Below, in pieces: positions 4,536-16,016 of a stretch of 64,000 nt of DNA. The notes below the pieces were generated by a model. It saw nothing but the letters and a program-made list of their open reading frames with translations, was not told the DNA's origin and made no database searches. Made by a program: the position numbers and the translations under genes. This DNA comes from Caulobacterales bacterium (GTDB lineage Bacteria; Pseudomonadota; Alphaproteobacteria; Caulobacterales; Caulobacteraceae): positions 62,001 to 126,000 of the forward strand of contig JACPDR010000019.1 in assembly GCA_016183935.1 (NCBI GenBank), given 5' to 3'. Within the stretch, counting starts at the first letter, position 1. Each line of letters starts with the position of its first letter.

Positions 4536-5056
4536 ATCAGCAGCGCGCCCTCGTGGCGCAGCAGCCAGCCCTTGCGCTCCAGCCCGCCGCCGAAGCCGAC
4601 CAGAGCCCCGTCCGCCCCGATCACCCGGTGGCAGGCCAGCACCAGCGGGATGGGGTTGCGGTTCAGCGCCACCCCCGCCGCCTGCGCCGCGCCGGGCTCG
4701 CCCGCGCGCTTCGCCATCTCGCCGTAGCTGATGGTCACGCCCGCCGGCACCCCGGCCAGCGCCCGCCAGACGCGGGCGTGAAAGCCGTCGCCCGCCACCG
4801 CTCCGTCCAGCGACCACGGCGCCCGCGTCAGGGCCTCTCGGTCACCTTCGAAATAGGCGGCGATGGTCCGCGCCAGCGCCGCCGGGACCGCGCCGTCGGC
4901 CAGGGCCGCATCCGGGTATTCCCGCCGCATCGCCTTGACCAATCCGTCGCCGAACGACAGGCCGCGCAGCACGTCCGCGCCGTCGCAGGCCAGGGCCAGC
5001 GGGCCGATCGGGCTGTCCAGCCACGACAGGGTGAGATGGACGGGCGCGTCGCTCAT
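4532..5056 (-). CDS. Methylated-DNA--[protein]-cysteine S-methyltransferase family protein
   Basis: 174 residues. The C-terminal half carries the alkyltransferase core: FHARVWRALAGVPAGVTISYGEMA, then NRNPIPLVLACHRVIGADG and GGLERKGWLL. The acceptor cysteine is present, but the usual PCHR motif reads ACHR. These enzymes remove alkyl groups from O6-alkylguanine by suicide transfer. The start overlaps the stop of the upstream ICL/PEPM gene by ATGA, so the two are probably co-translated. A second, canonical copy lies at 60476. Confidence 0.87.
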   Translation of the reverse strand: MSDAPVHLTLSWLDSPIGPLALACDGADVLRGLSFGDGLVKAMRREYPDAALADGAVPAALARTIAAYFEGDREALTRAPWSLDGAVAGDGFHARVWRALAGVPAGVTISYGEMAKRAGEPGAAQAAGVALNRNPIPLVLACHRVIGADGALVGFGGGLERKGWLLRHEGALLI

Positions 5057-5841
5057 CGGTTCTCCGGCATCAGCGCGTTCAGCTCGCCCCAGCCCAGCGC
5101 CCCGTCCATCAGCGGCGCCGACCGGCCGTCCTTGAGGAAGCCGCGGGTCAGCGCCGCCGCACGGCCCAGCGCCGCTCCGACGATCCCCGATCCCGCGCTC
5201 AGCCGCCGCACGCCCAGCGCCTCCAGCGCCCGCGCATCCGGCAGGCCGGGGAAGGCCAGCAGGTTCAGCGGCGCCTCCGTCGCCTTGACCAGCTCCGCGA
5301 TGCCCGCCTCGTCGACCAGTCCCGGCGCGAACAGCCCGTCCGCGCCCGCCGCCCGGTAGATCGCGCCGCGCCGCGCCGCTTCGGCCACGCGCGTCCCGGC
5401 CGCCCCCACGCCGGCGAGCCACACGTCGCAGCGGGCGTTGATGAACAGCTCCGGTCCCACCGCCGCCCGGATCGCCGCGATCTTGGCCGCCAGCGCCTCC
5501 GGCGAGCCGCCGCCGTCCTCGATATTGATTCCCTGCGCCCCCGCCTCGACCACCGTCCGCGCCGCCGCCGCGACCTCGGCGGGATCGTCGGAATAGCCGC
5601 CCTCGAAATCGACCGAGACCGGCAGCCCCTGCGCCGCCCGCACCACGTCCCGCGTCGCCTGGACGACCCGCTCGACCGGCAAGGCGTCGCCGTCCGGCCA
5701 GCCCAGCGCCCAGGCCACGCCCGCGCTGGTCGTGGCGATCGCCTTCGCCCCCAGCGAGCGCATCAGCGCCGCCGAGCCCCCGTCCCAGGCGTTGGGCAGG
5801 ATCAGCAGGCCGGATCGGTGCAGGTCGCGGAAGGCGGTCAT
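5053..5841 (-). CDS. Isocitrate lyase/phosphoenolpyruvate mutase family protein
   Basis: 262 residues with the ICL/PEPM barrel signatures: PNAWDGGSA near the N-terminus, TTSAGVAW, SVDFEGGYSD, GINIEDGG and FINARCDVW. Family members cleave or rearrange C-C or P-C bonds of 2-hydroxy or oxo acids using Mg2+. The short length and the absence of the isocitrate-lyase KKCGH loop argue for the general PEP mutase-like subgroup, not a glyoxylate-shunt enzyme. It is the first gene of a two-gene unit with the alkyltransferase (4-base overlap). Confidence 0.87.
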   Translation of the reverse strand: MTAFRDLHRSGLLILPNAWDGGSAALMRSLGAKAIATTSAGVAWALGWPDGDALPVERVVQATRDVVRAAQGLPVSVDFEGGYSDDPAEVAAAARTVVEAGAQGINIEDGGGSPEALAAKIAAIRAAVGPELFINARCDVWLAGVGAAGTRVAEAARRGAIYRAAGADGLFAPGLVDEAGIAELVKATEAPLNLLAFPGLPDARALEALGVRRLSAGSGIVGAALGRAAALTRGFLKDGRSAPLMDGALGWGELNALMPENR

Positions 5842-5948
5842 GGGCGTGTCTCCTTGTAAGCCCGGTCATGCCGGGGAGCCGGCCGGCCGTCTCGCGGCTT
5901 TCGGACAGGGACATCGTCCTTCCGCCACCGCCCGACAAGATCTGGCGA

Positions 5949-6734
5949 CTAGTGCGCCGCGTCGGCGGCGGCGTAGGCGGCGATCTGGATCATCCGGTAG
6001 GTCGGCGTGCCATTGATGCAGGCGCCGCCGACCCGCCGCCGCGGCCCGCCCGCCTCGGCCATGTCGGCGATGATGGCCGAACTGTCCTGCGGGCACAGCC
6101 GCCGCCGCGAGCCGTCGATGCGCCGGTTCAGCGGCAGATCGTGCGGCCACCAGTCGGGATCCCAGGCGCGGCAGGGATCGCTCCACGCCGCCTCCATCTG
6201 CGCGGCCTGCCGGGCCGCCAGCCGGCCCTCCTTCGGCGGCCACCAGCGCTCCTCGTCCGTGCGGCCGACGCGTTGTTCGGCGTCCCAGGCCCGGGCTTCG
6301 TCGGCGCTCAGGCCCTGGGGGGACGCCGGGGGCGGGCGTGGCGCGCCCTCGTTGACGCTGTGCCGCCAGAACCACCAGCTGCCGTCCGCCTCGCGCCACA
6401 CCACCGAGCGGTGGTCCGAGCTGTAGCCCCCGCCCGGCGGCATCCGCGCCCGGATCACCACCGGCGCGTCCGCCGGCGGCCGCCGGGCCGCCCATTCGGG
6501 GATGCTCACCACGTCCAGCATGTCCGAGGTCTGCGGGCCGTTCGCCGCGACCGCGCGGGCCCGTTCGCGCTCGAGCGTGCGGAAGTCGACGTCGCGCACC
6601 GCCTCGCACTGGTTTTGAGGCGGACGCTGCGCCGGGGCCGCCCCCGTGGGGGTCTGCGCCCCGGCTCCGCCCGCCGCCGCCGCCGCCTGCAGCAGCCCCA
6701 GCGCGAGCGCCCCCATCCGTGAAACCGCCCGCAT
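5949..6734 (-). CDS. Hypothetical secreted protein
   Basis: 261 residues; the ATG at 6734 gives a signal peptide (GALALGLLQAAAAAGGAGAQ). The mature part is Trp-rich (READGSWWFWRHS, ERWWPPKEG, DPDWWPHDLP) and Pro-rich, with three cysteines after the signal (NQCEAV, RRRLCPQ, GACING). No family recognised. Codon use is typical of the neighbourhood. It diverges from uvrB with about 165 bases between. Confidence 0.7.
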   Translation of the reverse strand: MRAVSRMGALALGLLQAAAAAGGAGAQTPTGAAPAQRPPQNQCEAVRDVDFRTLERERARAVAANGPQTSDMLDVVSIPEWAARRPPADAPVVIRARMPPGGGYSSDHRSVVWREADGSWWFWRHSVNEGAPRPPPASPQGLSADEARAWDAEQRVGRTDEERWWPPKEGRLAARQAAQMEAAWSDPCRAWDPDWWPHDLPLNRRIDGSRRRLCPQDSSAIIADMAEAGGPRRRVGGACINGTPTYRMIQIAAYAAADAAH

Positions 6735-6805
6735 CGCCGTGATCTCCCGTTCCGGCCCAGCTTCACCGAACCGCGAGGCGGCGGCAAGCCGACGGGACCT
6801 GACGC

Positions 6806-6829
6806 CTGCTGACACCCTGCTGTCAGCAG
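6806..6829. promoter_or_regulatory. Perfect 9-bp inverted repeat upstream of uvrB
   Basis: CTGCTGACA and TGTCAGCAG face each other across six bases, about 70 bases before the uvrB start and about 70 bases before the divergent gene. It could be an operator or a small hairpin. It does not match the alphaproteobacterial LexA box (GTTC-N7-GTTC), and no such box was seen here. Confidence 0.45.
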
Positions 6830-6899
6830 CCGCCCGCCGCATCCCCCCGCCGCCCCCGACGTTATGGCGCTGTCGCCTCCCGCCCCCTAGATTGCGTTC

Positions 6900-9242
6900 A
6901 TGGCCCGTTCCCCCAGCAAGTCCGGCAAGCCCGTCCACGTCCCCGGCCAGAGCGCCGGCCTCGCCGAGGCCCCGGCGAAATTCATCTTCGATCCGGCGGT
7001 GAAGTCGAACCGCGCCCCCATGTTCGCCCCCGTCACCGGCCCGCGCCTCCCCCCCGACGAGGCCCCCGGCGCGCCCAGCGACTGGACCCCGCACCGCCCC
7101 GACCGCCCCGACAACCGCAAGCACATCCCCTTCCGGCTGGAGACGAAATACACCCCCGCCGGCGACCAGCCCTCGGCCATCGCCGAACTGGTCGAGACCG
7201 CGAACACCGGCGAACGCGATCAGGTCCTGCTCGGCGTCACCGGCTCCGGCAAGACCTTCACCATGGCCAAGGTCATCGAACAGACCCAGCGCCCGGCCCT
7301 GATCCTCGCCCACAACAAGACCCTCGCCGCCCAGCTCTACAGCGAGTTCAAATCCTTCTTCCCCGACAACGCCGTCGAGTATTTCGTCTCCTACTACGAC
7401 TACTACCAGCCCGAGGCCTACGTCCCGCGCACCGACACCTACATCGAGAAGGACAGTTCGGTGAACGAGCAGATCGACCGGATGCGCCACTCGGCGACGC
7501 GGGCGATCCTGGAGCGGGACGATGTGATCGTGGTCGCCTCGGTCAGCTGTATCTACGGCATCGGCTCGGTCGAGACCTACACCGCCATGACCTTCACCCT
7601 GAAGGTCGGCGACCAGATCGACGAGGCCAAGCTCCGCGCCGACCTGATCGCCCTGCAGTACAAGCGCAACGACGCCGCCTTCGAGCGCGGCATGTTCCGC
7701 AAGCGCGGCGACACGCTCGAGGTCTTCCCCGTCCACATGGAGGACCGCGCCTGGCGCATCCAGCTGTTCGGCGACGAGCTGGAGTCGATCCAGGAGTTCG
7801 ACCCGCTCACGGGCAAGAAGACCGCCGACCTCACCGAGATCACCGTCTACGCCGCCAGCCACTACGTCACCCCGCGCCCCTCGCTGAACCAGGCCATCAC
7901 CGGCATCAAGGCCGAGCTGAAGGAGACGCTCGACTGGATGGTCGAGAACGGCAAGCTGCTGGAGGCCCAGCGCCTCGAACAGCGGGTGCGCTTCGATCTG
8001 GAGATGATGGAGGCCACCGGCTCCTGCGCCGGCATCGAGAACTACTCCCGCTGGCTGACCGGCCGCGCCCCCGGCGAGCCGCCGCCCACCTTCTTCGAAT
8101 ACATCCCCGACAACGCCCTGCTGTTCGTCGACGAGAGCCACGTCACCGTCGGCCAGATCAGCGCCATGTACCGCGGCGACTACCGCCGCAAGTCGACCCT
8201 GGCCGAGTACGGCTTCCGCCTGCCCAGCGCCATCGACAACCGCCCGCTCAAGTTCGACGAATGGGACGCCATGCGCCCCCAGACCGTCTTCGTCAGCGCC
8301 ACCCCCGGCCCGTGGGAGATGGAGCGCACCGGCGGCGTCTTCACCGAACAGGTCATCCGCCCCACCGGCCTGATCGACCCCCCGGTCGAGATCCGCCCGG
8401 TCAGCGGCGACACGCGCAACCAGGTCGACGACGTCATCGACGAGGTCAAGGCCGTCGCCCGCAACGGCTACCGCTCCCTCGTCACGGTGCTGACCAAGAA
8501 GATGGCCGAGGACCTGACCGAATACATGCACGAGCAGGGCGTCCGCGTCCGCTACATGCACTCCGACGTCGACACGCTGGAGCGGATCGAGATCCTGCGC
8601 GACCTGCGCATGGGCGCCTTCGACGTCCTGATCGGCATCAACCTGCTGCGCGAGGGCCTCGACATCCCCGAGTGCGGCCTGGTCGCCATCCTCGACGCCG
8701 ACAAGGAGGGCTTCCTGCGCTCCGAGACCAGCCTGATCCAGACCATCGGCCGCGCCGCCCGCAACGTCGACGGCCGCGTCATCCTCTACGCCGACCGCAT
8801 GACCGGCTCGATGGAGCGCGCCATCGCCGAGACCAACCGCCGCCGCGCCAAACAGGAAGAGTACAACGCCGAACACGGCATCACCCCGGAGTCGGTCAAG
8901 CGCGACATCCGCGAGATCATGGCCAGCCCCTATGAGTCCCGCGCGCTGGATCAGCTGACCGCGCCGGGGGTGAAGGAGGACGCCAAGCCCTTCGTCGGCA
9001 GCAACTTCCAGGCCGCCCTCAAGGACCTCGAAGGCCGCATGCGCAACGCCGCCGCCAACCTCGAGTTCGAGGAGGCCGCCCGTCTGCGCGACGAGATCAA
9101 GCGCATGAAGCTGATGGACCTCGAGTTCGCCAACGAGGTCCTGACGGCCGAGGGGGAGACGGTCGACAAGAGCGCGCCGAAGCGCTGGCGGGCGGACGCG
9201 GCGGCGGAGAAGGCGGAGGCGTTCAGGAAGTCGAGGCTGTAG
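6900..9242 (+). CDS. uvrB: Excinuclease ABC subunit UvrB
   Basis: 780 residues, longer than the usual 660-720 because of about 80 extra N-terminal residues rich in Pro and Arg. From about residue 80 the sequence is unmistakable: [16 protein letters not shown], Walker [11 protein letters not shown], beta-hairpin [15 protein letters not shown] helicase motif, [18 protein letters not shown] and TIGRAARN. The C-terminus has the UVR motif ([15 protein letters not shown]). UvrB verifies DNA damage and recruits UvrC in nucleotide excision repair. The ATG at 6900 is kept; the first 80 residues have the same GC-rich codon use as the rest. Confidence 0.97.
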
Positions 9243-9243
9243 G

Positions 9244-9263
9244 GGCGGGGCGCTAGCCCCGCC
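9244..9263 (+). terminator. uvrB: GC-rich hairpin at the uvrB 3' end
   Basis: GGCGGGGC-GCTA-GCCCCGCC, a perfect 8-bp stem directly after the uvrB stop, followed by only a short TT. A plausible terminator for uvrB. The accessory AAA gene ends 16 bases further on, convergently. Confidence 0.65.
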
Positions 9264-9278
9264 TTCCCGTGACGCATA

Positions 9279-11243
9279 CTAGATGGCGGCTTGAACAGAA
9301 TCGATGTAACTTACAAGACGCTCAAAATCGCCGTCAGCGATGCTCTTGGCATGCGCGTCGGCGCGAAGATCGTTTATGGCGATCATCATGGGTTTTAGTT
9401 CAGAGAATTCGAATCCGAGCCTTTCGGACCAATAATCGGGCTCATGGCCAGTTACGGAGATGATGTCTGAGAAGTAGAGGCGACAGTCTGTCTGCGAGAA
9501 AATTTCTTCGAAGCTGCAATCTACCAGAGCATCCGCGCGATTGCGGTTCAGAAGACCGCGCAATCCGTCTGCGGCTCCCGCGCGACCGTATTTGTCGATC
9601 ATACGTCCTCTGACAATCGCCCGCAGGTCGCGTTCCAACACACCGCGTTTTTTCGCGATAAGGGCCCACCTGTCCTCATCTCTTTTGACTACCCCGCTCA
9701 CCCGCGCGGACATCCTTAGGTAGTCGGACACGAGCTTCATTCTTGGTGTCAAAGCAGTACCGCTTTGCCGGACTAGGCCATAGCCTGTTAGGTGAGCAGC
9801 AAACTTTGGATCAAGGTTAAGAAACTCTTCGACCTTGTCCTCATCGCCAAGCGCGCACCATTCGAGAAGCTGGTACTCATCGGGGAAGCGAGACTTGAGT
9901 GAGGATAGGACGTCGTCAAAAAGCGGCTTAAAGTCGAATGAGCTCACGGCTTGCTGGACATGTTCAACCTCGACCCGAACTGGGCGTCCTTCGAACGGCA
10001 GTTGCTTATGAATGTGGCTCGCCACCTGTCGACTGAGAAACGCATGTCCGCCTAAGGCGCCATAGAGAGCCGCAATGGCCTCTAGAGAAAAGTTCATCCC
10101 CATGAGATCGCCGAGCGACTCGCACATCTGGCGGAGTTCGTGGTCTGTGAATCCTGGAAGATAGTCGACGGATATGTACGCCAAGAGTGGATTGTCGGAT
10201 CCAGCAATCTCGCGGCATTCGGTAATTACTGGATTAGTTCCGGCGACGATGAAACACATGCGATTGGCCATGCGTTGATGGATTGATCGCATTGTTTGCC
10301 AGAACAGCAACGTGTCTTGTCCGTCGCGCCAGTGGCCAATCCCTGTTTGAGGGGAGATGTGTTCCACCTCGTCAAACGCCAGAATAGTCTTGCGCTTTCC
10401 TTGAGAATAAGAATCGGCGAGTGCTTTCTCGAAAGAACGTGCTGCCTCAACGGGCGAAAAGTCGCCTAGCTGAACAGGCGTTATGGCTAAACCCGCAGCT
10501 TTTCGAACCTCAATCGCTACTGCGCGGAGTAGCTCGTTCCAGCGGGCGGATGTCGTACTAGCGCTTTGACAATCGATATGGACGAAGCGGTGGCCGTCGG
10601 TTTTCGCCAGCCTCTCACATGCAAGGAGAATCGAAGTCTTCCCGCTCTTCCGAAGTCCAAAAATGCCGGAGTTTTCGCCGCCGGACATGCGGTCTCTCAT
10701 TGCGGCGAGAAGTTCCGACCTCCCAAAGAAGAAGGTGCTTTCGCGAAGCGGATCGCGCTGAGAGAAGAGGTCGCGAAAGTAATAGTTCTCTCGAGTGGCC
10801 TCGATGATGTTCTTGCAGATATCCCCGTCGCATATATTATCATACGTGAACGGGAGTGTTACGGGGATATCCGGCTCATCGATACAAATCTTCCGTAGCT
10901 TGTCCGTTATTTTCTTGTCTTTAGAAATAAGAATTCGAAAATGACGGTTTACCCGCAAAGAATCAGTAAAGAAGTCAGATATTTTGCCATATGCAGTCAG
11001 CGTGCGCGCTTCGAAATTCTCATAGTCGGCAAAGAGAACAACGAATTCGCGTGCGTTTGGTAGAGCGTGTTCGATCTTATGAGATGGGCGAACTGTTACG
11101 TATGTGTAGCGTGATCCCCCCACAAACTCTTCGCTGCCGGTGGTGACATAGAAGTAGCCTGCCAATGCCGAGACTATATTGCGTTCTGCATGGGTAAAGA
11201 CATCCAGCCTGACGTTCGCATGGATGCCCGGATTCGTAGCCAT
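9279..11243 (-). CDS. AAA/STAND-like P-loop ATPase, probable accessory (defence-type) protein
   Basis: 654 residues in visibly AT-richer DNA with mixed codon use, unlike both neighbours. Residues 1-165 form an unrecognised alpha/beta region (REFVVLFADYENFEAR; FRILISKDKK). A FFFGR lead-in comes at about 171, then Walker A GLRKSGKTS at 196-204, Walker B ILAFDEVEH with D291/E292, and VAGTNP at 333-338. A winged-helix-like region follows. The last 120 residues (LRAIVRGRMIDKYG; YFSDIIS; INDLRADAHAKSI with R627 and H631) resemble the helical Swt1/HEPN type, which I infer with low certainty. The gene stands alone, convergent to uvrB. Precise function unknown. Confidence 0.75.
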   Translation of the reverse strand: MATNPGIHANVRLDVFTHAERNIVSALAGYFYVTTGSEEFVGGSRYTYVTVRPSHKIEHALPNAREFVVLFADYENFEARTLTAYGKISDFFTDSLRVNRHFRILISKDKKITDKLRKICIDEPDIPVTLPFTYDNICDGDICKNIIEATRENYYFRDLFSQRDPLRESTFFFGRSELLAAMRDRMSGGENSGIFGLRKSGKTSILLACERLAKTDGHRFVHIDCQSASTTSARWNELLRAVAIEVRKAAGLAITPVQLGDFSPVEAARSFEKALADSYSQGKRKTILAFDEVEHISPQTGIGHWRDGQDTLLFWQTMRSIHQRMANRMCFIVAGTNPVITECREIAGSDNPLLAYISVDYLPGFTDHELRQMCESLGDLMGMNFSLEAIAALYGALGGHAFLSRQVASHIHKQLPFEGRPVRVEVEHVQQAVSSFDFKPLFDDVLSSLKSRFPDEYQLLEWCALGDEDKVEEFLNLDPKFAAHLTGYGLVRQSGTALTPRMKLVSDYLRMSARVSGVVKRDEDRWALIAKKRGVLERDLRAIVRGRMIDKYGRAGAADGLRGLLNRNRADALVDCSFEEIFSQTDCRLYFSDIISVTGHEPDYWSERLGFEFSELKPMMIAINDLRADAHAKSIADGDFERLVSYIDSVQAAI

Positions 11244-11366
11244 CTTCGTTGCCCCCTGAGTCCGACCCGACGGTATCGAAGTCGCCTTGGACAGCCAAGC
11301 AGCATACCACTCGAGGTTGGTGGCGCCTGTTCATGATTTGCGGCAGGCTTTGCCTTGGAGGGGCAT

Positions 11367-11585
11367 ATGCCGAAGTTCACCATCCTCAGCCGCGTCGACG
11401 CCTACGTCGACTACACCACGGAAGTCGAAGCCGACTCCCTCGAGGAGGCCGTCGACCTGGCCTATGACGGCGACCCCTCGATCAAATGGAAAGAGCAGGG
11501 CGTGGTCGAGTTCGACGCCCGCCATGTCGTGGCCCTCGACGCCAATGGCGACGAGATCGATCGCTACTCGCGCGGCAAGGGCTGA
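11367..11585 (+). CDS. Small hypothetical protein, 72 residues
   Basis: Starts at the ATG in CATATG at 11367, five bases after a strong GGAGGGG ribosome-binding site; an in-frame ATG at 11355 is less well placed. The product (MPKFTILSRVDAYVDYTTEV, then EADSLEEAVDLAYDGDP) looks like a small alpha/beta domain with a helix of the SLEEAVxLA kind. GC-rich codon use matches the core genome, so it probably marks the right edge of the AT-rich insertion. No function assigned. Confidence 0.75.
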   Translation: MPKFTILSRVDAYVDYTTEVEADSLEEAVDLAYDGDPSIKWKEQGVVEFDARHVVALDANGDEIDRYSRGKG

Positions 11586-11614
11586 ACCACCGGCGGTCAG
11601 ACATGCAGGCGCTT

Positions 11615-11812
11615 GTCATCCCGGACACCGCGAAGCGGTGATCCGGGACGCCCGACCGCAGAGCATCATCCTCCCGGAAGCGGCGTGAGCCGCTATCCGG
11701 AAGACAGGTGGGGACCGGGCTCGCCGCTGCCTGGCTCCCGGACAATCGCGCCGCGATTTCCGGGAGCGGGCCTGAGGGCGCACCGTCGTCCCGGCTCTCC
11801 GGCCGGGATGAC
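11615..11812. repeat. Array of four GC-rich hairpins
   Basis: Four successive palindromes at 11615-11649, 11671-11703, 11734-11767 and 11785-11812 share a TCCCGG...CCGGGA core with different loops. They resemble dispersed REP-like elements common in alphaproteobacterial intergenic DNA. They fill most of the gap between the 72-residue gene and the DpnI-like gene. There is no repeat-spacer regularity, so this is not a CRISPR array. Confidence 0.65.
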
Positions 11813-11869
11813 AAGGCGCGGGAATGAGTCCGTCGTGACCCCCGCCCTTCCACCCGCTACGGTGGGTGG

Positions 11870-12664
11870 ATGGGGGACGATACCAGCTCGTGGTGCAGTC
11901 TCGGCTTCGCCGAGCCCAGCGCCGTCTACCGCAGCGGGACCCAGCAGGCGCGTCATCTGACCGAGGGCTGGATGGCCGAGCACGGCTTCTGCCCTGCCTG
12001 TCCGGCCGACCGCCTGCCGCCCCTGCCGAATAACACCCGCGTCGGCGACTTCCGCTGCGCCGACTGCGGCGAGGAATATGAGCTCAAGGCGGGCAAGGGC
12101 CCCATCGCGGGCGTGCTGCCCGCCGGGGCGTGGGGCGCCATGCAGCAGCGGCTGGCGGCCGCCAACAATCCCAGCCTGTTCGTCATGGGCTACGACCGCG
12201 CGGCGCATCGCGTCTGCGACCTCATCGTCGTGCCGCGCCATTTCTTCATCGGGGCCATCATCCGGCCGCGCCCGCCGCTGGGCCCGAACGCCCGCCGCGC
12301 CGGCTGGCAGGGCTGTACCATCCGGCTGAAGGACGTCCCCGCCGCCGGCCGCATCCCGCTGATCCGAGCCGGCGTCCCGGTGCCGCAGGCGGAGGTCCGG
12401 GCGCGGTGGCGGTCGACGTTGTTCCTGCGCGAGACGGCGGCGCCCGCGCGCGGCTGGCTGCTGGCAGTGATGAAGGCGGTCGAGGCGGTCGGCCGGGACG
12501 CGTTCACCCTCGAGGACGTCTACGCCCAGGAGGCGACGCTGGCGGCGCTCTATCCGGGCAACCGCAACGTCCGCCCGAAGATCAGGCAGCAGCTGCAGGT
12601 GCTGCGCGACCGGGGCTGGCTGGCGTTCGGCGAGCGGCGCGGGACGTACCGGCTTACGCTCTGA
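11870..12664 (+). CDS. DpnI-family methyl-directed type II restriction endonuclease
   Basis: 264 residues that match the DpnI layout throughout from memory of that protein: QQARHLTEGW, a zinc-type CPAC (C41, C44) plus CADC (C63, C66), the PD-(D/E)XK site VGDF...EEYELK (D60, E71, K73), NNPSLFVMGY, PNARRAGWQGC, and a C-terminal winged helix (FTLEDVYAQE, KIRQQLQVLRDRGWL). The catalytic residues sit in the same relative spacing as DpnI D53/E64/K66. DpnI cuts G-m6A-TC, so this enzyme is expected to attack Dam-methylated incoming DNA; a host using CcrM (GANTC) would be largely spared. There is no partner methylase, as expected for this class. The start at 11870 comes directly after a GGTGG stretch. 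Confidence 0.92.
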   Translation: MGDDTSSWCSLGFAEPSAVYRSGTQQARHLTEGWMAEHGFCPACPADRLPPLPNNTRVGDFRCADCGEEYELKAGKGPIAGVLPAGAWGAMQQRLAAANNPSLFVMGYDRAAHRVCDLIVVPRHFFIGAIIRPRPPLGPNARRAGWQGCTIRLKDVPAAGRIPLIRAGVPVPQAEVRARWRSTLFLRETAAPARGWLLAVMKAVEAVGRDAFTLEDVYAQEATLAALYPGNRNVRPKIRQQLQVLRDRGWLAFGERRGTYRLTL

Positions 12665-12666
12665 GC

Positions 12667-12835
12667 TTTCGTCATCCTCCGGCAAGGCGCTTCAGCGCCG
12701 CGACCGGGGGACCCAGCGGCGCGCGCAAGCGCGACCCTGCCGGGAGCGCCGCCGCTGAAACAGCCTGCCTGAACAGATCGCCTTCGGCGCCGCTGGGTCC
12801 CCCGGTCTCGCTGCGCTCGCCGGAGGATGACGAAA
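12667..12835. repeat. Large inverted repeat downstream of the DpnI-like gene
   Basis: Outer arms of 16 bases are perfect (12667-12682 and 12820-12835), and inner arms of 20 bases are also perfect (12703-12722 and 12787-12806, around GGGGGACCCAGCGG). The whole could fold into a long cruciform. It begins three bases after the DpnI-like stop codon and may also act as a terminator. Its sequence, a GTCATCCTCCGG type, belongs with the other dispersed intergenic repeats. Confidence 0.7.
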
Positions 12836-12892
12836 GCGGGAAGGGGGCGGCGCATCTGACCCTTCTCCCCTTGCGGGAGAAGGGCGACGCCT

Positions 12893-13417
12893 TCAGTCGC
12901 CCTTCGCCGCCGCTGTCGCCCCGTCCTTCGCCGGGAAGGCGATGTCCCTCGCCGCGCCCACGGCGTCGAGGAAGGTCTCGACCATGCCGCGCATGCGGCC
13001 GCGCGTCATGCCGGCCAGATAGTCCATGCGCCAGACCTTCAGGCGGTTCCCGGTCGCCATGTCGGACAGCCAGACGATGTTGACCTCATGCTCCATGGCC
13101 AGGGCCTCGGCCTCGCTGTCGAACTCGAAATCGACATTCATCATGAGCTCGGCGCAGCGCTTGGCCTCACCCTCGCCGGTGCAGCTCCAGCCCTCGAACT
13201 GGATGTACAGGCCGTCGGGATAGGTCGCCTCGATCCGGTACTCGTCGTCCTTCGTGTGCTCGACCTCGCCGGGCGCGCCGCCGGTCTCGACCACGAGGGC
13301 GCGGACCTCGGGGATGCTCAGGGTCGTCACCGGCTTGTCGGACTGGACCTGCGCCCAGGCCGCGCCGCTGCCGGCCATCAGGGCCATGCCCGCGACCCCG
13401 CCCGCCAGTTTCCGCAT
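12893..13417 (-). CDS. YbjN domain-containing secreted protein
   Basis: 174 residues with a signal peptide (GGVAGMALMAGSGAAWAQ). The mature part has the YbjN-like pattern: SIPEVRALVVETG, YRIEATYPDGLYIQFEGWSC and a helical C-terminal part with NIVWLSDMATGNRLKVWRMD. YbjN folds resemble type III secretion chaperones, but the role of secreted members is unknown. The ATG at 13417 was chosen because it gives the signal peptide. Confidence 0.75.
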   Translation of the reverse strand: MRKLAGGVAGMALMAGSGAAWAQVQSDKPVTTLSIPEVRALVVETGGAPGEVEHTKDDEYRIEATYPDGLYIQFEGWSCTGEGEAKRCAELMMNVDFEFDSEAEALAMEHEVNIVWLSDMATGNRLKVWRMDYLAGMTRGRMRGMVETFLDAVGAARDIAFPAKDGATAAAKGD

Positions 13418-13561
13418 CCGCCCCTCCGCGATTCCCCTGGAGAAGAGATAGCAGAAATGCAGGAGCGGCAGCGGGCCCCCTCCACCCCATCGCTGCACGA
13501 CAGGGAGGAGATGGCGGCGCCACGTCCGATTTTGACGCCCCGGCGCCTTACGCTGCCTGTC

Positions 13562-14107
13562 ATGTACGAGAGACAATCGCCACGCCTCCGCTCCGACGAC
13601 ACCTGGGCCGAAGTCCGCCGGGCGTGGGAGCGGGGAGAGACCGGGGCGTCGCTGGCGCGGCGCTATGACGTGGGGCTGGCCAACCTGTGGCGGCGACGGG
13701 CCTCGGAGGGATGGGAGCGGCGGCGGGAGAAGGATCCGGCGCCCGAGCCGCTGGAGGGGTGGGACCGGTATGCGGAGCGCAAGCGGGACGAGTTCGAGCT
13801 ACGGGTGGCGGAGGCCCGGGCGGTGGCGGTGAAGCTGGCGGAGGCCATGCAGGGCGCGCCGCTGGGGCTGGTCCCGCTGTGGCACATGGGGTTCGTGCTG
13901 GCGTGGCGGGCGGAGCATCTGACGCCGGAGACGGCGGCGCGCGACCGGGAATGGGTCAGCCGGTACGGCTGGGCCGGGGAGATGTGGGACGCGACGGGGC
14001 GGATGATGTCGGCGCCGTGGGTGGACGGCGTGATCCTGCACGCGAACCGGGCGGCGTGGCGCGAGGACGCCGGGCTGCCGGACGGGGTGGCGGAGGATTA
14101 TCCATAG
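13562..14107 (+). CDS. Hypothetical protein with HTH-like N-terminus
   Basis: 181 residues starting MYERQSPRLRSDDTWAEVRR. Residues about 15-60 (AWERGETGASLARRYDVGLANLWRRRASEGW) look like a helix-turn-helix of the kind seen in small terminase subunits and transposase N-termini. The remainder is helical and Trp-rich. No phage genes surround it, so the HTH may be regulatory. No family recognised with confidence. Confidence 0.65.
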   Translation: MYERQSPRLRSDDTWAEVRRAWERGETGASLARRYDVGLANLWRRRASEGWERRREKDPAPEPLEGWDRYAERKRDEFELRVAEARAVAVKLAEAMQGAPLGLVPLWHMGFVLAWRAEHLTPETAARDREWVSRYGWAGEMWDATGRMMSAPWVDGVILHANRAAWREDAGLPDGVAEDYP

Positions 14108-14195
14108 GGCGGCGACGGCGGAGAAAGCCGGGAACTTGGCCCCCCGCGCCCGGTTGCCTTGGCGACCCTCAACCCGGCGCAAGGAACCCCCGCCC

Positions 14196-14786
14196 ATGTC
14201 CGTCATCGACAAGGTTCTCGGCAAGCTCACCCCGTTGCCCGAACAGGCCCGCATCGAGGCCTCCGCCAACGCCCGCGCCATCGCCAGCCACGGCGGCTGG
14301 CTGTGGCAGGTGCTTGATCACCACGACGCGATCCGCGCCCGCTTCGCCGCCTGCCATCAGGCCGAGACGGCCGAGGACCGGGTCGCGGCCATGCGCGAGC
14401 TGGGGGCGATCCTCAACGCCCACGCCATGGCCGAGGAGGTGGTGCTCTATCCGGCGTTGGCCCAGGCCGGCGAGAAGATGCACGCCGGCCACGCCTACCA
14501 CGAGCAGACCGCCGCCAAGATGCAGATGGCCGAGTGGGAGACCATCGCCCCCTCGACCCCCGAGTGGAAGGACAAGCTCAAGCATATCGAGGGCGCGGTC
14601 CTGACCCACATGTACGAGGAGGAATCGAGCTGGTTCCTGCACCTCAAGGACAAGGCCGACCGCCAGGACCGGCTCGCCGACCGCTACCGCGAGGAGTTCG
14701 AACGCTGCGGCGGCGGCCTCTCGACCGACCGGGGCGACCGCCCGGCCGCCGGTCCGGCTTCGACCCTGATGAGCCCGATCGACTGA
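14196..14786 (+). CDS. Hemerythrin HHE domain-containing protein
   Basis: 196 residues. Histidine and glutamate residues with HHE spacing are visible: VLDHHDAIR near residue 40, NAHAMAEEVVLYP at about 75, HAYHEQTAAK at about 95, and THMYEEESSWF at about 133. HHE proteins bind a di-iron centre and sense or store O2 or NO. A small membrane-anchored ORF follows 10 bases after the stop and is probably in the same operon. Confidence 0.85.
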   Translation: MSVIDKVLGKLTPLPEQARIEASANARAIASHGGWLWQVLDHHDAIRARFAACHQAETAEDRVAAMRELGAILNAHAMAEEVVLYPALAQAGEKMHAGHAYHEQTAAKMQMAEWETIAPSTPEWKDKLKHIEGAVLTHMYEEESSWFLHLKDKADRQDRLADRYREEFERCGGGLSTDRGDRPAAGPASTLMSPID

Positions 14787-14796
14787 GGATGTGCCG

Positions 14797-14988
14797 ATGA
14801 CCCAGACCCCGCTGCAGGAACAGGAGGCGGCCGGGACGATGGCCGCCTCGGCCGACCTCGAGGAACTCGACCCGACCGCCGGGGTGGTGCGGGAGCGACC
14901 GCGCGGCCTGCACGTCGCCGGCGCCTGGGCCGCCGCCGCCCTGCTTCCGGCCGCGGCCATGATGCTGTTGCGGAGGCGCCGACGCTGA
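14797..14988 (+). CDS. Small membrane protein, 63 residues
   Basis: Begins MTQTPLQEQEAAG at 14797 (a GTG at 14791 is in frame), with one hydrophobic segment (AGAWAAAALLPAAAMMLL) and a basic tail RRRRR, suggesting a single-pass tail-anchored protein. It sits immediately downstream of the hemerythrin gene and ends 63 bases before the transporter gene. Function unknown. Confidence 0.55.
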   Translation: MTQTPLQEQEAAGTMAASADLEELDPTAGVVRERPRGLHVAGAWAAAALLPAAAMMLLRRRRR

Positions 14989-15051
14989 TGACGCTGCGGG
15001 GGGCGATCAGGGGAGGAGACGAAGGGCGCGAGGTCGGCCTATACGGCGCTC

Positions 15052-15981
15052 ATGCTCTCGCCCCGCGCCGCCGCCCTCGCTGTCCTGGTCGTCTCCGCCG
15101 CCGTGCTGGGGCTGGCCCCGATCCTGGTGCGGCTGGCCGACGCGGGCCCGGCGGCGGCGGCCTTCTGGCGGCTGGCCTTCGCCGTGCCGCTGCTGCTGGT
15201 GCTGACCGCCCGGCCCCGCTCGCTTGGCGGCGGCGGCGGGGGGACGGGGCGGCCCACGAAATGGATGGCGCTGGCGGCGCTGTTCTTCGTGCTCGACCTC
15301 AGCTTCTGGCACTACGGCATCGCCTTCACCTCGGTGGCCAACGCCACGGTGCTGACCAATCTGACGCCGGTGGTGGTGACCCTGGTCGCCTGGGTCCTGT
15401 TCCGCGAGCGGCCGCGGGCCCTGTTCGTGCTGGCCCTGGCGCTGGCGCTGGGCGGGGCCTTCGCCATGTCGGCGGGGGCGGACGGGCGGCAGGGCGCGAA
15501 CCCCCGGCTCGGCGACGCCTTCGCCGCCGTCACGGCGCTCTGGTACGCGGGCTATTTCCTCGTGGTGAAGCACGCGCGGGGCGCGGCCTCGGCCGGGCGG
15601 GTCATGCTGTGGTCGACGGCGCTGGGCGCGCCGCTGCTGCTGGCGGTGTCGCTGGCGCTGGGCGAGCCGCTGGTGCCGGGCTCGGCGGCGGGCTGGGCGG
15701 CCTGCGCGGCCATGGGGCTGATGCATGTGATCGGGCAGGGCGGGGTGGCGTGGTCGCTGGGCCGGCTGCCGGCGGCCCTGACCGCCGTGACCGTGCTGAT
15801 CCAGCCGGTCGTCGCGGCCCTGCTCGGCTGGTGGCTGTTCGCCGAGACCATGACCGCGATCCAGCTGACGGGCGGCGCGGCCCTGCTGGGAGGGGTGCTG
15901 CTGGCGCAGTGGTCGTCGCTCAAAAAGACGCCCGGCCGCGTCGGGTCGGGAGGTCCCGAAGGGCCGACGATCGCGGCCTGA
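15052..15981 (+). CDS. DMT superfamily (EamA) transporter
   Basis: 309 residues, about ten hydrophobic helices in two EamA halves: LGLAPILVRLADAGPAAAAFWR near the start, VANATVLTNLTPVVVTL in the first half, and GRLPAALTAVTVLIQPVVAALLGW in the second. These are inner-membrane drug/metabolite exporters; the substrate is not predictable. The ATG at 15052 (MLSPRAAAL) is the first good start of the frame. Confidence 0.85.
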   Translation: MLSPRAAALAVLVVSAAVLGLAPILVRLADAGPAAAAFWRLAFAVPLLLVLTARPRSLGGGGGGTGRPTKWMALAALFFVLDLSFWHYGIAFTSVANATVLTNLTPVVVTLVAWVLFRERPRALFVLALALALGGAFAMSAGADGRQGANPRLGDAFAAVTALWYAGYFLVVKHARGAASAGRVMLWSTALGAPLLLAVSLALGEPLVPGSAAGWAACAAMGLMHVIGQGGVAWSLGRLPAALTAVTVLIQPVVAALLGWWLFAETMTAIQLTGGAALLGGVLLAQWSSLKKTPGRVGSGGPEGPTIAA

Positions 15982-15985
15982 AACA

Positions 15986-16016
15986 AGAAAGGCGCGGAGG
16001 CCGTGGCCGCCGCGCC
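15986..16016 (-). terminator. Rho-independent terminator of the cold shock gene
   Basis: The stem GGCGCGG/CCGCGCC (15991-15997 with 16010-16016) also contains an inner GGCC/GGCC pairing. On the minus strand it is followed by TTTCTTGTTT, a good U-rich tail. It lies 28 bases beyond the cold shock stop codon, between two convergent genes. Confidence 0.72.

Follow-up and report, generated by a model that had tools for sequence, protein, structure and literature searches.

What does an AT-rich gene behind uvrB in a Caulobacterales bacterium encode, and is its product part of an anti-phage defence? We addressed this question in a window of 64,000 nucleotides (the whole stretch of DNA analysed), which belongs to a genome assembly of 2.93 Mb in 55 contigs. 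The gene and the two edges of the site it occupies are listed here with their coordinates in the window.

6900..9242, (+) strand: uvrB, conserved, which bounds the variable site on the left, as defined by DNA similarity to relatives
9279..11243, (-) strand: defence-candidate gene, 654 aa (P0001), from the ORF list and its translation; relatives found
11367..11585, (+) strand: small conserved gene (MPKFTILSRVDAYVDY...), the site's other edge in relatives G014 and G022

An AT-rich gene in a variable site

The candidate gene, 9279-11243 (-), is a single intact open reading frame of 654 codons with an ATG start and no internal stops. It is convergent with uvrB, the two stop codons lying 36 bp apart, and the small gene at 11367-11585 (+) is divergent from its start. 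A first-pass annotation of this DNA had described an AT-richer gene inserted behind uvrB, and the composition, foreign-looking indeed, bears this out: with a GC content of 0.523 and a GC3 of 0.57, it is the AT-richest among the coding-like ORFs of the window, for which GC3 is 0.891 +/- 0.068 (mean and SD of 53 script-called ORFs with coding-like periodicity, the candidate gene included). The 1-kb GC profile reaches its minimum, 0.514, at this gene, and its values outside the gene are at least 0.622. That no integrase or transposase lies next to it also holds, as inspection by eye of the ORFs at positions 5000-16000 revealed none. A search for flanking repeats marking an insertion yielded just three short imperfect direct pairs, none of them convincing.

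Within the host's genus, the 3' side of uvrB (positions 9243-11366 in the window; loci L038-L057, L077 and L078) holds cargo that is low in GC and highly variable from genome to genome. From the 24 genus members searched, 22 flanks were measured (G006 gave no match, and G007 lies near a contig end). DNA similarity stops no more than 18 bp from window position 9245 in 18 of 20 relatives, and the 2 kb after uvrB have a mean GC of 0.550 in these 20 (17/20 below 0.63), compared with 0.686 for the control flank of ctrA (1/19 below 0.63) and 0.674 for that of folE (1/17 below 0.63). The ctrA control was usable in 19 of the 20 genomes (the contig ends in G003) and folE in 17, with G004, G016 and G017, which matched only about 70%, excluded; the window itself has what we take to be a ctrA-like gene. 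Genome pairs sharing at least 150 bp of flank number 2/190 for uvrB versus 32/171 for ctrA and 80/136 for folE. Two further uvrB flanks were read: that of G005 has a GC of 0.384 and, by eye, an ATPase gene, and that of G023 is ordinary, at 0.672. This makes 18 low-GC flanks among 22 relatives.

The cargo of this site is often defence-like. PADLOC matched 11 of the 17 loci at 1e-5 (one to three proteins per locus; the ordinary-looking L044, L045 and L047 left out), a count for these uvrB loci alone that includes general ATPase, methylase and dGTPase models; at the same threshold, L038, L039, L049, L051, L053 and L055 gave no match. According to Pfam and PADLOC, the occupants comprise HEC-01A/B; PDC-M71B with a kinase; DUF4145/PD-T7-4; NACHT/PDC-S60; a C5 methylase with Vsr; a D12 methylase with a DndB/DpdB-like protein; an HD/dGTPase-like protein (two genomes); and AAA_21 ATPase, HNH, HSDR_N, HATPase and DUF6236 proteins. 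In one relative, an RT-Toprim reverse transcriptase lies behind uvrB (L041:2190-3959; PADLOC 1e-215). G003 carries an ATPase gene between uvrB and the gene that adjoins uvrB in G001 and G023 (by eye), as a simple insertion would produce. The 2-3 kb read at each of the uvrB-site loci contained no recognisable integrase; an IS5-like transposase was seen by eye in the ordinary-GC flank of G009 (L047).

The core defence hotspots of Pseudomonas aeruginosa (PMC10250203) would likewise pair a constant chromosomal border with interchangeable defence cargo, in another genus and beside another flanking gene. With a different foreign, often defence-like gene behind uvrB in most relatives of the genus, this site invites searches for further systems.

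Three-part architecture of the protein

The protein is divided into three parts, which are listed below with their motifs.

9282..9683, (-) strand: residues 521-654, supported as a Swt1-like HEPN domain (hhalign probability 96.35; helical in the model)
9348..9365, (-) strand: HEPN motif R627-A-D-A-H631-A632 (Rx3H), with R, A, H and A invariant in 18/18 rows of alignment A5
9684..10772, (-) strand: residues 158-520, predicted STAND-type P-loop ATPase (Pfam AAA_35, 1.6e-9; VIA fold search)
10368..10385, (-) strand: Walker B ILAFDE (in ILAFDEVEH), residues 287-292, with D291 and E292 invariant in alignment A2
10632..10658, (-) strand: Walker A GLRKSGKTS, residues 196-204, with GxxxxGK[TS] in 25/25 homologues
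10773..11243, (-) strand: N-terminal domain, residues 1-157, likely a restriction-endonuclease-like fold (model, fold searches, conservation)

Conservation was assessed in three alignments: A2 with 16 sequences (without L005, L006, L008, L011, L019-L021, L024 and L025), A3 with 14 members, and A5 with 18 rows, which are the Rx3H proteins, L005 and L008 included. Motifs were tabulated for 25 proteins, that of the window and those of 24 relatives, after trimming L019, L024 and L025 of their N-terminal extensions.

The earlier assignment of the central part to a STAND/AAA ATPase with the motifs GLRKSGKTS and AFDEVEH stands: both motifs are present, and in the AlphaFold2 model of the whole protein (14 aligned sequences; mean pLDDT 86.5) the predicted ATPase fold matches 2qen (VIA Z 21.5, rmsd 4.5, 323 aligned), CED-4 (Z 19.6, rmsd 4.0, 297 aligned) and plant NLRs (Z 15 to 18), a search that scarcely probes residues 1-157 and 521-654. 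Among the 50 matches listed for BFVD, most are clamp-loader-like and other ATPases. STAND NTPases carry a GxP-type motif. It reads GGHP in 14 of the 16 rows of A2, and the window protein and L002 have GGHA. The modelled structure thus supports the identification of residues 158-520 as a STAND ATPase. Searching the PDB by sequence returned nothing useful with the whole protein or with the N-terminal or C-terminal profile.

The N-terminal domain had been left unassigned, with a structure prediction proposed for it. Residues 1-163, modelled alone, fold with a pLDDT of 88.2, and among the 50 VIA matches listed, all with Z below 8, 19 are nuclease-type or XisH-like, 18 are the RNA polymerase subunit RPB5, 10 are acetyl-CoA carboxylase and 3 are others. 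The best nuclease-type matches are EndoMS (Z 7.4), EcoT38I (6.4) and BspD6I (6.3), and the best Foldseek E-value is 0.018. Nuclease and RPB5 chains share the restriction-endonuclease-like fold, which makes this fold likely, not proven, for residues 1-157 despite the weakness of the individual matches. A likeness to TIR domains was dropped because the strand order differs and the fold lists show other folds. Five residues, T34, P53, E66, R80 and R97, are invariant in 14/14 sequences. The catalytic D and (D/E)xK signature is not conserved, however: E66 is present in all 14 sequences, but the position two residues after it holds V, L, I, P or A and never K, and in the preceding strand no column is acidic in at least 9 of the 14. 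Since the cutting residues are absent, this domain more probably binds nucleic acid or a phage protein.

For the C-terminal part, the first-pass annotation had pointed to a helical, HEPN-like end with R627 and H631. A profile-profile match and the invariance of both residues uphold this likeness; the spacing of the motif, Rx3H, is not the canonical one. Nine HEPN_Swt1 domains above the cutoff, from 9 of 200 genomes, were aligned as a reference. When this reference was compared with the aligned C-terminal parts of 16 members of the family, hhalign gave a probability of 96.35 and a score of 57.3 over 113 columns (its E-values are pairwise, for one pair, and uncalibrated for a database). The control scores were 10.9 for the reversed profile, 15.0 for the best of 60 column shuffles (0.65%), 11.0 for the N-terminal part and 13.1 for the ATPase part, with all nulls below 1%. 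The probability was 90.35% after removing the motif and everything downstream, 96.7% without L010, L013, L014 and L016, and 44% with the window and Leaf363 proteins alone. The HMM search that had been proposed for HEPN found little with single sequences: of ten C-terminal pieces, L013 alone matched Pfam HEPN_Swt1 (PF18731), with an E-value of 0.0016 and 19.1 bits, below the cutoff of 27.5, and the nine others, including those of the window protein, L020 and L021, had no match to it. Taken at the level of sequence profiles, the assignment of residues 521-654 to a Swt1-like HEPN domain is supported.

All 16 sequences of A2 share R627, A630, H631 and A632, and R533 and E537, in an earlier helix, are also invariant in A5. 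The form R-x-[DE]-A-H-A (Rx3H) occurs in 18 of the 22 proteins that keep the domain, the window protein among them. Rx4H was found by eye near the corresponding place in L011, L019, L020 and L021, with an overlapping Rx3H in L020, and the RRYEAH of L022 and L023 is readable either way; L006, L024 and L025 lack the domain. As stated in the part of PMC3710099 that deals with it, the motif of the HEPN superfamily is Rx4-6H, partly conserved in Swt1-like members. The window protein has no canonical Rx4-6H at this place, its Rx3H being one residue shorter, so RNase activity is not assured, and the family raises the question of whether a HEPN domain with a shortened Rx3H motif cuts RNA.

Relatives on plasmids, satellites and viral contigs

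Relatives of the gene are sparse: with its own genome counted each time, they occur in 1 of 61 near genomes (its own), 3 of 385 genomes of the class and 4 of 398 of the phylum. The nearest homologue, 72% identical, belongs to Brevundimonas sp. Leaf363 and lies directly behind lepA, not uvrB; this lepA, named by eye, has an 87% identical stretch in the host genome. Together with the ctrA-like gene of the window, this suggests that the host probably belongs to Brevundimonas or lies close to it. In five genomes from the class and phylum searches, the gene is lower in GC than its surroundings in every case (gene/surroundings 0.387/0.624, 0.327/0.520, 0.483/0.619, 0.459/0.609 and 0.334/0.421). Relatives were found in Pseudomonadota and Deinococcota, with a HEPN-less one in Cyanobacteriota. 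A tree of 25 proteins, with good support for 14 of its 22 inner branches and with long-branch warnings, joins the window and Leaf363 proteins (100/100) within a family whose other copies come from plasmids, satellites, prophages and chromosomes. For the relatives, a simple script called the ORFs, and their names were given by eye except where a family search is mentioned.

Among plasmid records, 21 match by tblastn at less than 60% identity, 16 of them from Klebsiella and 18 predicted to be conjugative; in 15 records the match spans 80% or more of the query. Relatives were found on 14 viral contigs, to which a second viral scan added no locus, and a tblastn search of 50,697 phage records gave no match. 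For 12 of these contigs (L020 and L025 left out), the gene context was read. PHROGs confirmed integrase pieces beside the relative in L018 and, within a few kb of it, genes for tail proteins (L014 and L012), for replication (L013, L015 and L016) and for a primase (L017). The family phrog_6841, which has no function assigned, is matched by 4 of the 14 members of A3 and not by the window protein. L013:4649-13461 and L024:3992-13241 have flanking genes in common, and a shared position near the replication genes is filled by a different superfamily member in each.

Five carriers were found among 5,426 complete E. coli genomes, with DNA about 94% identical to the Klebsiella relative, a count made by DNA similarity to the Klebsiella gene in which more distant relatives would be missed. 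In each of the five, a P4-like element at tRNA-Sec carries the relative between int, the integrase gene, and psu, the polarity-suppression gene, with no other annotated cargo there apart from IS elements. One element has an IS21 between the relative and psu, and one has IS copies within int and psu. In two of the five, the relative is annotated as two pieces (L059:13001-15004 and L071:4501-6503) and may be decaying there. The P4 int-psu locus is a reservoir of antiviral systems, as described in the sections of PMC9122126 that concern it; the window copy is chromosomal and lies outside any P4. Neither of the two findings that the first-pass annotation had named as counting against it, a predicted C-terminal fold unrelated to HEPN and no enrichment of homologues in defence neighbourhoods, arose: seen locus by locus, homologues do reside in such neighbourhoods, at the P4 int-psu locus (5/5), on viral contigs and at the uvrB site.

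A candidate anti-phage receptor and its alternatives

We consider it probable that the gene encodes a self-contained, one-protein anti-phage receptor in which a STAND switch is combined with a HEPN RNase. At rest, the STAND ATPase would be kept inactive. During infection, the N-terminal domain, with its fold devoid of cutting residues, would take up the trigger; the ATPase would then swap its nucleotide and oligomerise, drawing the C-terminal Swt1-like HEPN domains into dimers that could cut RNA (tRNA or mRNA), and growth would stop before phage release. The computation itself establishes the gene, its three parts, the STAND fold, the HEPN profile match, the invariant R/H motif and the presence of relatives in a described antiviral hotspot and in other mobile elements; the trigger, oligomerisation, RNase activity and abortive outcome are proposed from the ways in which STAND and HEPN proteins are known to work. 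Because a repeat sensor is absent (the eight Pfam matches that the window protein gives at E <= 10 include no repeat family), which part senses is a guess.

More tentatively, and as a possibility that we put at somewhat short of even, the order of a STAND protein may be reversed here, with an inactivated endonuclease-fold sensor in front, the STAND switch in the middle and a HEPN RNase with a shortened R-x-[DE]-A-H-A at the back, carried as a lone gene in P4 satellites, prophages, plasmids and a uvrB hotspot without a visible integrase.

STAND proteins usually have their effector in front, and a classical arrangement would make the endonuclease-like N-terminal domain the effector, working through a non-standard active site, and turn the C-terminal HEPN into a module that binds or senses RNA without cutting it. 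STAND proteins of the hotspot that begin with an Mrr_cat or BpuSI_N nuclease domain, reported in PMC9122126, would fit such an order, as would the invariance of E66, R80 and R97 and the unusual spacing of the HEPN motif; we nevertheless regard it as unlikely, given that the residue two positions after E66 is never K, that the preceding strand lacks a widely acidic column and that the C-terminal R/H motif is invariant in 18/18 sequences. The gene could also be unrelated to defence, acting in addiction, in replicon maintenance or as some other selfish single gene of plasmids, satellites and prophages. Relatives on conjugative and other plasmids agree with this, as does a HEPN-less one on a Nostoc plasmid near a ParB-like gene; yet the loci read contain no constant partner gene, in 5/5 cases the P4 antiviral hotspot holds the relative as its sole annotated cargo apart from IS elements, and the other occupants of the uvrB site are largely defence-like, which makes a non-defence role quite improbable. 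That the C-terminal helices resemble HEPN merely by chance, as helical bundles may, would accord with the lack of a Pfam HEPN call in the window protein and in the L020 and L021 pieces and with the empty PDB search, but it is highly improbable in view of the hhalign match, which largely survives removal of the motif, and of the PF18731 match of L013.

The favoured reading, a STAND switch with a HEPN effector, belongs to a known kind of protein. Where the first-pass annotation spoke of an undescribed system, Table 1 of PMC3710099 (2013) already contains, in the portion that concerns these proteins, Swt1-like HEPN domains fused to STAND-ATPase, TPR and S1 (Npun_F6454, MED222_16016 and Desac_1927), and novelty in this sense must be given up. 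Like the window protein, these fusions combine a Swt1-like HEPN and a STAND ATPase in one chain; unlike them, as far as their description in that table allows the comparison, it has no TPR or S1 by Pfam. With the STAND/NLR-like and Avs proteins of P4 hotspots, as described in part of PMC9122126, it shares the STAND ATPase and the single gene, and its E. coli relatives the same satellite locus, but it differs in lacking a C-terminal repeat sensor, in its C-terminal HEPN and in a nuclease-like front without the catalytic motif. HEPN is likewise the suspected or required effector in Tha of S. aureus prophages (PMC11087260) and in the CBS-HEPN protein DS-11 (PMC13092281), a likeness by domain alone, the regulatory parts described in these sources being other than those of the window protein. 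PARIS (AriAB) was rejected, as AAA_15/AAA_21 and DUF4435 are absent from the Pfam matches of the window protein.

Among the papers listed from the open-licence PMC literature, we recognised none on this protein or on the uvrB site; the supplementary tables of PMC9122126 may include the E. coli copy. PADLOC 2023 gave a single weak match for the window protein, to mad8 (0.0037, residues 174-245, over the P-loop), and weak matches for members of A3 to mad8 (6/14), PDC-S01 (4/14, best 6.1e-5), PDC-M34B (4 and 2) and PDC-S27 (1), so PADLOC may contain a candidate that is loosely related. The gene is a testable single-gene defence candidate, not firmly recognised by PADLOC 2023.

Two variations on the architecture were seen among the relatives. 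In the HEPN-less L024:6942-10819 and L006:7362-10507, a second gene follows with a short overlap (a P-loop was seen by eye in L024), and this partner possibly represents a two-gene form in which the effector has moved to the second protein. A cold-shock domain is present in 1 of the 14 members of A3 (Pfam CSD, 2.8e-8), assigned by eye to L019:7749-10058, and a cold-shock-type domain was seen by eye at the N-terminus of L024:6942-9230. These N-terminal domains of L019 and L024 are reminiscent of the S1/OB fusions mentioned in the part of PMC3710099 on such proteins.
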